Origin: Acidobacteriota bacterium
GTDB lineage: Bacteria; Acidobacteriota; Terriglobia; Terriglobales; Acidobacteriaceae
Assembly: GCA_003225215.1 (NCBI GenBank)
Contig: QIBC01000022.1
Location: forward strand, 1 to 40,191
Direction of reading: 5' to 3'
Length of the DNA stretch: 40,191 nucleotides
The position numbers were made by a program, and so were the translations under genes. Under the pieces are notes generated by a model. That model saw nothing but the letters and a program-made list of their open reading frames with translations, was not told where the DNA came from and ran no database searches. Position 1 is the stretch's first letter, and each line of letters starts with the position of its first letter. Below are positions 12,588 through 38,792 of this stretch, in pieces.

Positions 12588-13084
12588 GGGCGCTCCTTCC
12601 GAGCCAGCACCACTGCTCCCATGATGGCAATCAGCACCAGCACAGACGTGATCTCAAAGGGCAGGAGGAATTCCCGGAAGAGAGCGATGCCGAGCTCCTG
12701 CGTGGGAACGTAATAGCCGCCGATCTGCACTTGTCCAAGTTGGAAGCGCGAGGCTGAAAGCGTCCAGCACAACAATCCAAAAAGCGCGATCAGACCGGGC
12801 ACGCCCAGGAAGAGAGCAACGCGGCTGCCGCGCGTCCTCTCCTCTTCGCCGGCATTCAGCAGCATGATGACGAAGACGAAGAGCACCATCACGGCGCCCG
12901 CGTAGACGATTATCTGAACGGCAGCTACGAACTCTGCACCCAATAGCAGAAACAGGAGCGCGAGCGATCCCATCACAACGATCAGCGATAAGGCGCTGTT
13001 CACAGGATGGCGTTGGAGCAGGAAATTAAGAGCTCCCGCCACACAGATTCCCGCGAAGATGAGAAACAAAATCGTGTGGAGCAT
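12584..13084 (-). CDS. nuoJ: NADH-quinone oxidoreductase subunit J
   Basis: 166 residues with five hydrophobic helices. The characteristic helix-3 region [20 protein letters not shown] and the following IMLLN are intact. It begins 15 bases after the nuoH stop. In most bacteria nuoI lies between nuoH and nuoJ; here there is no room for it. Confidence 0.96.
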
Positions 13085-13099
13085 TTCTGTTCCGAAAAC

Positions 13100-14170
13100 T
13101 TAGGACCGCAATGCCAGCACCAGGCTGGTGACCACAATGTTTGCAATCGATAGAGGCAGCAGGAACTTCCAGCCAAACGACATCAGTTGATCGTAGCGGA
13201 AGCGCGGAAGCGTCCCGCGAATCCAGATGTACACAAAGATAAAGAAAAACACTTTGACGAAGAACCAGAACAGCGGTGAAATGATTAGCCAGATCGGCGG
13301 CACAGGAAGATGAAGCCCCTCAAGCGGGCTGTGCCAACCGCCGAAGAAGAGCAACGTCGCCAGACAGGCAACGGTCACCATGTTGCAGTACTCGGCCATA
13401 AAGAACATGGCAAATTTCATGGCGCTGTACTCAGTGTGGTAGCCGGCAACCAGCTCAGTCTCCGCTTCTGGGAGGTCGAATGGGATACGGTTTGTCTCGG
13501 CGTATGCCGCCATAATGTAAATAAAGAAAGCGACGAACTGTAGCCCGCCGAAGAAGTGCCAGTGCAGCAGCGACCCGGCTTGGGAATCAACGATCTGACG
13601 CAGGCTTAGGCTTCCGGCAAGAAGCAGCACGCCGACCAACGAGAGACCGAGCGCCAACTCATAGCTGATGAGCTGCGCGCTCGCCCTCAGGGATCCGAGC
13701 AGGGAATACTTTGAATTGGAGGACCATCCTGAGAGGGCAACGCCGTAAACGCCTAGCGAAGTGATACCGAGAATTATCAGCAGGCCGATGTTGATGTCTT
13801 GAATCCCGCTGCCGGTCCAGAAGGCGGCCGTTTGCAAGGGAATATGATAGCCCGCGACATACCAGTCGCCACCAAATGGAATAATCGAAATCGAGATCAG
13901 TGAAAGAATCAGGGCGATCATCGGGGCAGCGATATACAGGGGCTTATAGACGCTGTCCGGAATAATGTCTTCTTTCAGAATGAACTTGATGCCGTCAGCC
14001 AGCGGCTGAAGCAAGCCGAAGGGTCCAACGCGATTGGGGCCCCAGCGGTTCTGCATGCGAGCGATAACCTTGCGCTCCATCAGCACAATGTAGGCCACCG
14101 CGGTTAGCAGGATGAAGAGCAAGAGAGCGATCTTAATGACCGCAAAAGCGATGTATTGAATTAATTCCAA
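13100..14170 (-). CDS. nuoH: NADH-quinone oxidoreductase subunit H
   Basis: 356 residues, eight hydrophobic helices. This membrane subunit links the quinone chamber to the proton channels. Signatures include MERKVIARMQNRWGPNRVGP, LQPLADGIKFILKEDIIP, PFDLPEAETELVAGYHTEYS and FAMFFMAEY. The start is TTG at 14168-14170 (read as MELIQYIAF): an in-frame stop lies shortly upstream and the next ATG would delete the first helix. No clear ribosome-binding site. A 119-base gap separates it from nuoG, the largest gap in the operon. Confidence 0.95.
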   Translation of the reverse strand: MELIQYIAFAVIKIALLLFILLTAVAYIVLMERKVIARMQNRWGPNRVGPFGLLQPLADGIKFILKEDIIPDSVYKPLYIAAPMIALILSLISISIIPFGGDWYVAGYHIPLQTAAFWTGSGIQDINIGLLIILGITSLGVYGVALSGWSSNSKYSLLGSLRASAQLISYELALGLSLVGVLLLAGSLSLRQIVDSQAGSLLHWHFFGGLQFVAFFIYIMAAYAETNRIPFDLPEAETELVAGYHTEYSAMKFAMFFMAEYCNMVTVACLATLLFFGGWHSPLEGLHLPVPPIWLIISPLFWFFVKVFFFIFVYIWIRGTLPRFRYDQLMSFGWKFLLPLSIANIVVTSLVLALRS

Positions 14171-28137: not shown

Positions 28138-28179
28138 AAGCCAGATTTGCCCATATCGGTGCGGAAAAATCGTCTTTGA

Positions 28180-28349
28180 AAGGGCACGGCTTCAGCGAAG
28201 CGCAGCCGTGCCGTTTTGGTCTAGCCCTGAAACTCGCTTCAACCTCCGAGGAGAGACTTCCCAATTTGGAGAGAGTTCCTCAGCGGCGGAAGCCGGGTTT
28301 AAAACTGGCCCAGTCGGCACGGCTGCGCTCCGCTAAAGCCTTGCCCCTT
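28180..28349. repeat. Inverted pair of a palindromic intergenic repeat
   Basis: The 35-base unit around 28179-28213 reappears as its reverse complement around 28315-28349 with about four differences (shared core CGGCACGGCTGCGCT and TGCCC). Each unit is itself partly palindromic. The arrangement resembles a REP/BIME-type doublet between two pterin genes. Confidence 0.6.
28183..28217 (+). terminator. Hairpin followed by TTTT after PTPS copy 1
   Basis: The arms GGCACGGCT (28183-28191) and AGCCGTGCC (28204-28212) form a 9-bp stem with a 12-base loop, followed by GTTTT. It may partly separate the first PTPS gene from the next three. The same sequence occurs inverted at 28316-28347, so it is also part of a repeat pair. 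Confidence 0.55.
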
Positions 28350-28381
28350 CAAGCTGTTCAGGCTGAGAAAGCAAGGACAGC

Positions 28382-28828
28382 ATGAAGGCTCATCTCACAA
28401 GGCGGTACAAGTTCTCGGCCTCCCACCGGCTGCATTCGCCTCACTTCAGCGATGCGGAAAATCGCGAGATGTACGGAAAGTGCAACAACCCCTATGGGCA
28501 TGGACACAACTACAAGGTTGAAGTCACCGTTAGCGGACACCCTGATCCGGAAACAGGGATGGTCTGCAACCTCGTCGATCTGGATGGCTTTGTGGATCGG
28601 GTCGTGATGCCGAGATTCGAGTTCAGCAATCTCAACGAATTGGATACGTTTCGCAATCTGGTACCCACAACTGAGAATCTTTCGCGGGAGCTGTTTCATC
28701 TCTTCCGTGATCAGTTCGGCCTGGCCAAAGTGGAAAAGGTTCGGATTGAAGAGACCATGATGAATTCCTTTGAGTACGCCGGCGGCCTGGAACTTGGTCC
28801 CGCCGTTCCGAAACGGGCACTGGGATGA
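28382..28828 (+). CDS. 6-pyruvoyltetrahydropterin synthase/QueD family, copy 2
   Basis: 148 residues. Same active-site plan as copy 1: His15 in FSASH, Cys34 in [14 protein letters not shown], His40 and His42, and [15 protein letters not shown], but its sequence differs a lot from copy 1 (for example [22 protein letters not shown]), so this is an old duplication or a separate acquisition. The stop overlaps the start of folE by 4 bases (ATGA), so the two are translationally coupled, which ties this copy to the GTP-derived pterin route. Confidence 0.92.
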
Positions 28829-29478
28829 AGGGGAACCGAGTGAAGAGTGGAGCAGCAGAGCGCGTAATGACGATGCCGAAGACGACACTGCAAGAGCAAA
28901 GCCAAGCGGAAGCAGCTCTGGAGAAGGCTTATCTCGAGATTCTCGAGAACATCGGTGAAGATCCTGAGCGCGACGGCCTAAAGCGATCGCCTGAGCGCAT
29001 GGCCAAAGCCATTCGATTTCTCACGCGCGGATATCAGGAAGATCCTGGGCAATTGCTGCGCGCGGCCCTCTTCCAGGTCGATTACGACGAGATGGTCATC
29101 GTCAAAGACATCGAAATGTTCAGCCTCTGCGAGCATCACATGCTGCCATTCTTCGGCAAAGTGCATGTTGCTTATTTGCCCAAGGGAAAGGTGATCGGGC
29201 TTAGCAAGATTCCGCGACTGGTAGATGTTTTCGCGCGCCGCCTGCAGGTGCAGGAGCGGCTTACTAAGCAGATTGCAGAAGCCATTCAGGATGCCGTCGA
29301 TCCCATCGGAGTCGGAGTCGTCATTGAGGCGCGCCATCTCTGCATGATGATGCGCGGAGTCGAGAAACAGCATTCGGCCACTGTGACTTCATCGATGTTG
29401 GGCGCCTTCCGTAACGAGCAGGAGACACGCGAGGAGTTCCTCTCGCTGATTCGTTCAGGCAAGCCTAACGGGTTCTGA
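28825..29478 (+). CDS. folE: GTP cyclohydrolase I
   Basis: 217 residues. Converts GTP to 7,8-dihydroneopterin triphosphate, the first step for folate and biopterin. Motifs: [40 protein letters not shown] (zinc Cys and His), [18 protein letters not shown] and the zinc ligand in [13 protein letters not shown]. The ATG coupled to the upstream PTPS (28825) is chosen; an internal ATG at 28867 is also possible and would remove an unconserved basic N-terminus. This is the classical FolE type. Confidence 0.96.
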
Positions 29479-29481
29479 GCA

Positions 29482-29656
29482 ATCGGGTGATCGGGCCATC
29501 GGGTGATCGGGTGAAATAAGAATGGCTAATCTCGCGACTTGGTGACTTTGTAATTTTAAAATCGCAAAATCACAAAATCGCGAAATAGGCGAGCCTGGGT
29601 TCTTACTTCACCCGATCACCCGATGGCCCGATCACCCGATGGCCCGATCACCCGAT
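29482..29656. repeat. Large near-perfect inverted repeat with tandem sub-units
   Basis: The left arm 29482-29522 and right arm 29600-29640 are reverse complements over 41 bases with one mismatch; the first 34 bases match perfectly. The arms are built from the unit CGGGTGATCGGG/CCATCGGGTGATC. A further half unit continues at 29641-29656. The 77-base centre is AT-rich (TTTTAAAATCGCAAAATC). Transcribed RNA would form a long hairpin between folE and the dehydrogenase gene. Confidence 0.9.
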
Positions 29657-29740
29657 TATTTAGGGATTCACCGTCATAAACCGGCGGTTCGGAATGACAA
29701 CATTAAGAGACTGTCCCGTGGTGAAATACTTGTCCCTACC

Positions 29741-30460
29741 ATGAACGGCAATCTCACGGGAAAAACGGCAGTCGTTACGGGCGGAAGCCGTGGTATCGGT
29801 TTGGGAATTGCCCATGAACTTGCGTCTAGCGGTTGTCGAGTGGCGATCGCAGGGCGCGATTCCCGAGCGCTCGAAGCGGCTATCGCGCAATTCAAGAATG
29901 AAGACCTGTCGCTCTCTGCGAAGCGCTGTGATGTTTCCAATCCCGATCAGGTAAATGAGCTGTTTCAGGCGGTCCGCGAGCGCTTTAAGTCTCTTGACTT
30001 CCTGATAAATAACGCCGGAGCCGCCCATGCCCTCGCGAATGTTGACCGGCTTACCCCCGATGAATTTAGGCGAGTCATCGATACCAATCTCGTCGGCACA
30101 TTTCTTTGCTGCCGAGCCGCAATTCCGCTCATGAGCGCAGGCTCCGTGATCGTGAACAATCTCTCCGTCGCAGCGCATCAAACATTCGCAGGTATGTCAG
30201 GATATAACGCTTCGAAAGCGGGAGCGCTGGCGTTCACCAACACGCTGCGCGAGGAGTTGCGTACACAGGGAATTCGCGTGATGGCGCTTATTCCCGGCGC
30301 CGTTGATACGGATATCTGGCAGCAGTTCTGGCCCGATGCTCCTCGGGAAAAGATGGTTTCAACTCAGGACGTTGCCCGCGCCGTGGTACTCACGCTCACC
30401 ATGCCGCCAAATACTTCGATAGACGAGATCCGGATCGGGCCTGCCAGCGGGACATTATGA
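29741..30460 (+). CDS. Short-chain dehydrogenase/reductase
   Basis: 239 residues, classical SDR of about the usual length. NAD(P)-binding GGSRGIG (14-20), NNAG (90-93), and the catalytic Ser142, Tyr155 and Lys159 (YNASK) are visible. AGRD after the second strand suits NADP(H) binding. I start it at ATG 29741 (MNGNLTGKTAVVTGG); the open frame reaches upstream into the inverted repeat. Directly after PTPS-PTPS-folE, a role like sepiapterin reductase (last step to tetrahydrobiopterin) is attractive, but SDR substrate cannot be read from sequence and 3-oxoacyl-ACP-reductase-like roles are equally possible. Confidence 0.9.
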   Translation: MNGNLTGKTAVVTGGSRGIGLGIAHELASSGCRVAIAGRDSRALEAAIAQFKNEDLSLSAKRCDVSNPDQVNELFQAVRERFKSLDFLINNAGAAHALANVDRLTPDEFRRVIDTNLVGTFLCCRAAIPLMSAGSVIVNNLSVAAHQTFAGMSGYNASKAGALAFTNTLREELRTQGIRVMALIPGAVDTDIWQQFWPDAPREKMVSTQDVARAVVLTLTMPPNTSIDEIRIGPASGTL

Positions 30461-30536
30461 TGTCATTCCGAACCGCAAGGTGTTTGCGGTGAGTAATCCC
30501 TGGTGCGCTCAAATACTCGTCCTCCTTACTTAGACG

Positions 30537-36649: not shown

Positions 36650-36700
36650 GGAGCATACAACCTATCACGCGGGAAAGCGTCCAGAAACCAAAAACCTGGG

Positions 36701-36773
36701 AAACCACAAGGACACGAAGAGGCACGAAGGATATGCCGGCTTTTCCTTCGTGACCTTCGTGTCCTTGTGGTTT
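36701..36773. repeat. Inverted repeat between glycosyltransferase and miaB
   Basis: AAACCACAAGGACACGAAG (36701-36719) and CTTCGTGTCCTTGTGGTTT (36755-36773) pair perfectly over 19 bp, and the arms continue with related GGCACGAAGG and CCTTCGTGA inside. The sequence belongs to a CACAAGGACACGAAG repeat type that I recall from many soil-bacterial genomes. It lies 39 bases ahead of the miaB start. Confidence 0.8.
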
Positions 36774-36812
36774 CACCCGCGTTTCTGGCGGCGAAACGCT
36801 ATACTAAGCGTG

Positions 36813-38211: not shown

Positions 38212-38697
38212 ATGGAAGTCGAGATGAAGATTCGCGGGTTGATGATGGACCCCGTCACCAACATGCCGATCGTCGTGCTTAAAGATCCTTCGAGCGATGC
38301 CGTCCTGCCGATCTGGGTAGGGATTTACGAAGCCAATGCCATCGCTCTTGAGATCGAGAAGGTCGCCACGCCGCGCCCAATGACTCACGATCTGATTAAG
38401 AACGTCCTCACCGGCCTCGAGTCCAAGGTCGCCAAAGTGGTTGTAACCGAGCTTCGCGACGATACCTTCTTCGCCGTGATCTGGATCGAGCGCGAAGGGC
38501 GGTTCATCAGCATCGATTCACGACCGTCGGATGCGCTGGCCATCGCGATGCGACTCGACTGCCCAATCTTCGTCGAGGACGAGGTGCTGAAATCCTCCAA
38601 GCTGGCCGCTACGGTGTCCGATCGAGTCTCCAACGAAGAGCTGCGAAAGTTGCTCGAGAATATGAACGACGAGGACTTCGGCCGCTACAAGATGTGA
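38212..38697 (+). CDS. Bifunctional nuclease family protein (BFN, DUF151)
   Basis: 161 residues, full family length. The conserved blocks are MKIRGLMMDPVTNMPIVVLK, LPIWVGIYEANAIALEIEKV, RPMTHDLIKNVL, FFAVIWIEREGRFISIDSRP and SDALAIAMRLDCPIFVEDEV. Plant members were reported to have RNase and DNase activity; the bacterial role is unclear. It follows miaB with a 70-base gap that contains a GC-rich palindrome fragment. Start ATG with GGAGG upstream. Confidence 0.93.
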   Translation: MEVEMKIRGLMMDPVTNMPIVVLKDPSSDAVLPIWVGIYEANAIALEIEKVATPRPMTHDLIKNVLTGLESKVAKVVVTELRDDTFFAVIWIEREGRFISIDSRPSDALAIAMRLDCPIFVEDEVLKSSKLAATVSDRVSNEELRKLLENMNDEDFGRYKM

Positions 38698-38699
38698 AA

Positions 38700-38792
38700 G
38701 AGCTTCTGGCTGCTTGCTGCTGGCTTCTGGCACGGCAAGAGAGATGTTGTTCTTGCCTTTGGCTAGCAGCCAGAGGCTAGGAGCCAGAAGCT
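38700..38792. repeat. Imperfect inverted repeat after the BFN gene
   Basis: AGCTTCTGGCTGCTTGCTGC (38701-38720) pairs imperfectly with the region 38762-38792 that ends GGAGCCAGAAGCT; the outer 11 bases match fully. The GCTGCTGGC/GCCAGCAGC style unit repeats within each arm. It may act as transcript terminator or be a mobile palindromic repeat. Confidence 0.6.

Follow-up and report, generated by a model that had tools for sequence, protein, structure and literature searches.

A dispersed family of octamer-armed inverted repeats at gene 3' ends in an acidobacterial lineage

The inverted repeat that lies between the GTP cyclohydrolase I (folE) and short-chain dehydrogenase (SDR) genes of the window, the whole 40,191-nucleotide stretch of Acidobacteriota contig QIBC01000022.1 that was analysed, is, judged by its copies in the genome sequences, a member of a real dispersed family and not a one-off. 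The family is probably a dispersed, non-autonomous inverted-doublet repeat of an acidobacterial lineage with REPIN/BIME-like behaviour, whose copies act as hairpins at the 3' ends of mRNAs. The copies, their doublet form, the persistence of their arms, their placement 0–7 nt past stop codons and the lack of a target duplication or Y1 transposase neighbour are all shown at the level of sequence, as set out below.

Structure of the element in the window

The left arm of the element begins 3 nt past the folE stop codon (Table 1). The arms pair over 44 nt with 95% complementarity (29479–29522 with 29600–29643) around a 77-nt centre, and a pairing shifted by two units joins 29481–29511 to 29627–29657 in a perfect stem of 31 nt. 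The near-perfect inverted repeat of about 41 bp described here by the first-pass annotation is thus confirmed, its coordinates being correct within a base or two, while two details of that description change. The repeat unit, given there as CGGGTGATCGGG, is an octamer, ATCGGGTG, alternating with ATCGGGCC in some units, with a periodicity of 8 that on the right arm is also 16. The supposed extra half unit is an excess of two whole units on the right arm, since the left arm has four and the right arm six.

Table 1. Features of the folE-SDR region of the window
Feature	Coordinates	Strand	Remarks
GTP cyclohydrolase I (folE), upstream gene	28825..29478	+	Message predicted to have the hairpin at its 3' end
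Left arm	29482..29522	+	Octamers ATCGGGTG-ATCGGGCC-ATCGGGTG-ATCGGGTG, then AAATAAGAA; family consensus AAGTAARAA
Centre, 77 nt	29523..29599	.	Imperfect palindrome of AAAATCGC/AAAATCAC octamers at 29529–29586
Right arm	29600..29656	-	TTCTTACTT, then six reverse-oriented octamers; left arm has two fewer
Remnant (right arm) of an older palindrome (TAGGGATTC...GGCGGTTCGGAATGACA)	29661..29699	.	Left arm missing; full palindrome preserved after folE in G001 and G003
Short-chain dehydrogenase (SDR), downstream gene	29741..30460	+	Likely true start 84 nt past the element

The inverted repeat is genuine and well outside what chance would give. The 14-mer ATCGGGTGATCGGG, allowing at most two mismatches, occurs eight times in the window, always inside the element, where shuffled sequences lead to an expectation of 0.33. 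The folding energy is -110.6 kcal/mol on the plus strand (z -12.3) and -124.4 kcal/mol on the minus strand (z -17.2), and none of 200 shuffles is equally stable. A single arm alone folds weakly, at -8.2 and -3.6 kcal/mol. No Rfam 15 model matches at its gathering score, the only hits being sub-threshold microRNA-like matches on the centre.

Other inverted repeats were observed in the window. A hairpin of tandem GGCTTCT/GGCTGCT heptamers at 38701–38792 begins 3 nt past the stop codon of an ORF with a bifunctional-nuclease domain (38212–38697). A 38-bp inverted repeat (GGCACGGCTTCAGC...GCCGTGCC) with 89% complementarity occupies 28176–28352, between two 6-pyruvoyl-tetrahydropterin-synthase genes, and at 36700–36774 CACAAGGACACGAAG words form a perfect inverted repeat of 20 bp, within sequence whose fold scores z -8.2.

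The open frame of the SDR gene runs from 29639 to 30460, and the first-pass annotation made the element part of an apparent N-terminal extension of that frame. With the ATG at 29741 as start, the protein has a Pfam adh_short match that begins nearly at its N-terminus (residues 8–198), and an equivalent ATG is found 3' of folE in two other genus members, G001 and G004, with unrelated sequence ahead of it. Both observations point to 29741 as the most likely start of the gene, so the N-terminal extension is most likely only apparent and the frame from 29639 fortuitous. Annotators should be warned that the element would give this gene a false N-terminal extension.

Copies of the element and anatomy of the family

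With the 190-bp element as query, BLAST returns 129 matches in the window genome (G000, a draft assembly with 421 contigs and 4.94 Mb), where hits on both strands at a single site count as two. Matches occur in 12 of the 41 genomes searched, including all six members of the genus, with 44 to 70 matches each. An exact 22-mer is present in seven of 250 genomes drawn class-wide, at 55 sites in G000 and at one to seven in each of the other six. In a named genome collection the 22-mer has at least 80 loci; among the matches listed, 57 of 80 belong to Acidobacteriota, judged by their titles, and the remaining loci are scattered across other phyla. The first-pass annotation had suggested a non-autonomous fold-back element, to be abandoned in favour of a local duplication if no relative had further copies and transcription was unaffected. 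Many paired copies were found in G000 and its relatives, in support of the fold-back element, and a local duplication is ruled out by the 129 matches in the same genome together with those in 12 of 41 genomes.

Paired arms were extracted from stretches fetched around the matches, yielding 68 distinct elements from six genomes (G000, 24; G001, 20; G002, 2; G003, 9; G004, 8; G005, 5). A consensus built on their 136 arms reads approximately GAATCGGGTGATCGGG.CATCGGGTGATCGGGTGAAGTAAAA, with no GTAG or CGTC tag. A typical arm of about 41 bp consists of four ATCGGGNN octamers and a GAAGTAA end, and two such arms in inverted orientation form a doublet around a centre of 28–260 bp (median 109 in the 68 elements). 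The motif TTCTTC often follows the outer ends, and single arms are found besides doublets. One such octamer arm lies in frame within dnaG on contig C39 of G003 (locus L045, about 1501–1545), at a fast-changing linker where relatives differ in residues and only slightly in length. Searches of the open literature returned no description of such octamer-arm doublets for this bacterial group.

The octamer count differs among arms, reaching 18 in one arm (L095), and it could be argued that the arms began as octamer microsatellites, which expand and came to face each other when replication switched templates, with no mobility involved. The missing target duplication agrees with such an origin, as do the replacement-like junctions seen in dnaG and at the slot behind folE. 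Yet dozens of unrelated loci carry one and the same ordered arm, GAAGTAA end included, as seen in the 136 arms; slippage alone is insufficient for this, and such an origin is very improbable indeed.

The two arms of one element agree at 48%, against 37% between elements (p 0.005). Among the inner flanks, an element's own partner is top-ranked in two of 43 elements (43 of 65 were used, centres under 50 nt being left out). This agreement is only weak, and strong concerted evolution within elements is rejected. Spread, selection for pairing or recombination between copies may maintain the likeness of arms.

Contents of the centres

The centres are far from uniform. By motif, 28 of the 68 show the mark of a further repeat family (GTCATYCY palindromes, GGC heptamers, GATTT octamers or GTAGAGACGC), and 18 of the 61 centres of at least 40 nt fold on their own better than z -3. 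GATTT-octamer centres resembling that of the window are found in five of the 68 genus elements; this link is one of motif and not of alignment, since the window centre has only one weak further BLAST match in G000. The idea that the window centre is a dispersed family in its own right was therefore rejected. One of the families met in the centres, a palindrome some 165 bp long (TGTCATCCTGAGC...GCTCAGGATGACA; e.g., contig C117 of G000, 13039–13244), is itself dispersed, with 85 matches in G000 when both strands are counted. Most lie away from the octamer element, and copies are found inside or adjoining octamer arms on contigs C117 and C285. On contig C320 of G000 (locus L101, 1452–1939), octamer arms surround a gene for a four-helix 23S_rRNA_IVP protein that itself lies between two other genes; this arm pair is too widely spaced for the pairing rule. 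From these other families and the 23S_rRNA_IVP gene it follows that the arms enclose changing content.

Position relative to genes and possible role in the transcript

Gene calls were made with a simple hexamer model trained on the fetched loci, so individual position cases may be wrong. Among 234 distinct arms, counted where at least 400 nt separate the arm from the end of the stretch, 99 have a called gene that reads toward the arm and ends at most 300 nt upstream. The distance from stop codon to arm is 0–7 nt for 56 of these, 8–15 nt for five, 16–50 nt for eight and 51–300 nt for eight; it is below zero for 22, mostly where a TGA inside the arm acts as the stop codon. Across the six genomes of the genus, an arm lies 0–7 nt away for 36 of the 57 stop sides and for only 4 of the 71 start sides. 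The 68 elements comprise 41 between co-directional genes, 13 between divergent genes, seven between convergent genes, six with one gene called and one inside a called gene. Placement between the two genes departs from uniform in the 30 co-directional elements tested (KS p 9e-8), 12 of 42 having been left out for a gene call that overlaps the arm or lies more than 500 nt away. Between convergent genes the element can fill the entire gap, with ends, for example, 6 and 3 or 6 and 5 nt from the two stop codons.

This placement makes a role in the transcript plausible. In the window the folE message would end in the element, whose very long stem just past the stop codon could block 3' exonucleases and limit read-through into SDR. 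Copies may remain mainly at 3' ends because of selection against damage to genes and 5' regions. Counter to a 3'-end role are the 13 divergent copies, which lie where no 3' end exists.

The two strands of the copies offer a further comparison. Of the 41 co-directional copies, 30 have the more stable fold on the strand that matches the upstream message (sign p 0.004, with copies at orthologous sites not being independent), and G-U pairs in these copies number 224 against 171. The asymmetry fits selection on the transcript, but C-to-T change on the sense strand of transcribed genes would predict an identical sign. The suggestion in the first-pass annotation of a regulatory structure between the two genes is accordingly plausible: the family abuts stop codons and favours the sense strand, while the window copy behaves in the opposite way, its antisense strand being the more stable (-122.2 vs -108.4 kcal/mol).

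A bidirectional transcription terminator, kept as a family because each copy ends transcripts, would also begin right past stop codons, abut stops at both ends in convergent pairs and perhaps be followed by TTCTTC beyond its outer ends, as is often seen here. Against it, no T tract and no terminator-like call are present between 28900 and 30200 of the window, the stem is much longer than those of ordinary intrinsic terminators, and convergent pairs are few (7 of 68) where divergent ones are frequent (13 of 68). Termination as the reason for the family is highly improbable.

Orthologous sites and turnover of hairpins

A strong hairpin occupies the folE-SDR slot in four of the five genus members examined, built from three unrelated sequences. 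An intact GTCATTCCGAACC palindrome follows folE in two sister species, G001 (z -8.3) and G003 (z -8.8), a third, unrelated palindrome follows it in G004 (z -4.1), and in G002 a strong hairpin is absent (z +1.7). In G000 the remnant at 29661–29699 adjoins the octamer element and the left arm of the older palindrome is missing. The octamer element therefore either replaced half of the older palindrome or was inserted before that half was lost, since only the right arm survives. A left-arm-like piece of the GTCATTCCGAACC palindrome is also located just 3' of SDR (30463–30498) and by eye belongs to the same family as the remnant.

Four further slots were compared. Slot C contains the octamer element in G000, G001, G003 and G004. 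Slot B contains it in G000 and G001, and G003 and G004 have different DNA there with no significant fold; another hairpin seen by eye in slot B of G003 was dismissed, as its fold does not stand out from shuffles (z -1.3 and -0.6). Slot D carries the element in G000, a reduced form in G004 and the right arm alone in G001, with unrelated hairpins in G003 (z -6.8) and G005 (z -5.7) and none in G002, giving three unrelated palindromes in total. At slot A just a decayed trace of the element is present in G001. Counting against a 3'-end role, a hairpin is evidently dispensable, because the element has decayed at slot A of G001 and no strong hairpin is found at slot B of G004 or the folE slot of G002. 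In 11 orthologous or partly orthologous element pairs the arms are recognisable throughout, while the alignment of most centres barely rises above that of random pairs (mean 0.40); L104/L131, at 0.80, departs from this most clearly.

Under the favoured account of a 3'-end hairpin repeat, the same slot can presumably be taken over by other palindrome families. A bolder proposal is that gene 3' ends in this lineage are slots at which unrelated palindrome families are exchanged as cassettes, through an agent acting on hairpins near stop codons, so that a new hairpin takes over the spacer as far as the stop codon instead of being added next to it, with no target duplication, and hairpins become nested. 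The folE-SDR slot and slot D would then be snapshots of this exchange. Resting on five slots, the proposal is a doubtful one. Sister species with different hairpins at one gene end make the question of selfish versus host-serving repeats testable through orthologous slots.

Mobility

No target-site duplication is present at the ends of 38 elements, which was the check proposed for a fold-back element, and direct repeats at the ends are within chance for 22 tests. No arm occurs near any of the 51 Y1-transposase matches of the six genomes (48 stretches, 127 kb, with flanks of about 1.2 kb as far as the contigs reached), and since the assemblies are drafts this survey may miss a contig. The result is one of no association and not of avoidance, because the density of the family predicts only about two arms by chance. 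Mobilisation by an adjacent RAYT or TIRYT was rejected on the same 51 matches, and no arm pair enclosing a transposase gene was seen in the fetched stretches. At three loci of G000 (L287, L288 and L291), Y1-transposase genes are flanked by other palindromes (GGAGCGAGGCTT...; GGACCGCCGCGCGCCC...) and look like genuine REP-transposase pairs.

These results bear on the possibility that the repeat is a selfish, MITE-type element bounded by terminal inverted repeats, which a classical transposase moves in trans and which does nothing for its host; its 3'-end placement would be the residue of purifying selection. Its inverted arms, variable centre and many copies are as expected of such an element, and the copy pair around the 23S_rRNA_IVP gene and the single in-frame arm in dnaG of G003 also suit it. 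The 38 elements with no target-site duplication do not, nor do the fetched stretches and Y1 surroundings, with neither an arm pair around a transposase nor a nearby arm. Convergent gaps filled from stop to stop are likewise not what clean insertion into an existing spacer would lead one to expect. A MITE-type element is an unlikely explanation that still merits attention.

Comparison with known systems

REPINs, or REP doublets, are portrayed in the extracts of Bertels and Rainey 2011 (PMC3116915) as predicted hairpins with inverted conserved ends and a less conserved spacer, in extragenic positions. The octamer family resembles them, as far as those extracts go, in being extragenic and present as many-copy inverted doublets, with singlets too. 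It has in common with REPINs the inverted doublet around a less conserved spacer and the extragenic position close to gene 3' ends, and with MITEs the terminal inverted repeats. Unlike REPINs, it has no RAYT neighbour, its centres may hold other repeat families, and its tandem-octamer arms form no stable palindrome of their own and carry no GTAG tag. The family is not filed as a REPIN because RAYT linkage and tagged palindromic units both fail.

According to the extracts of Di Nocera et al. 2013 (PMC3733652), most GTAG/CGTC-tagged REPs lie less than 20 bp from the 3' ends of ORFs, are found on both sides in convergent pairs and can supply stop codons, and some lie within genes, including DNA synthesis genes. 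The octamer family similarly hugs 3' ends, sometimes supplies the stop codon and has one arm in dnaG. The same extracts report the TIR families of TIRYT transposases in Acidobacteria as well. The octamer family differs from both groups in its lack of tags and of any arm-flanked Y1 gene in the six genomes, the TIRs being compared by their description there.

REPs of E. coli located at most 15 nt from stop codons are reported in the extracts of PMC12306157 to stall ribosomes and lower translation. The octamer family lies at the same distance from stop codons as the REPs of that account, with a far longer stem and another sequence, and by analogy ribosome stalling is a possible second effect of the window element on folE. 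Intergenic TAACTGA heptamer repeats of Beggiatoaceae (PMC4679880) are also short tandem words dispersed between genes. As described for that group they are direct repeats, whereas the octamer family consists of inverted pairs forming long hairpins. The octamer family would thus extend the REP-like hairpins of gene 3' ends to an acidobacterial group.
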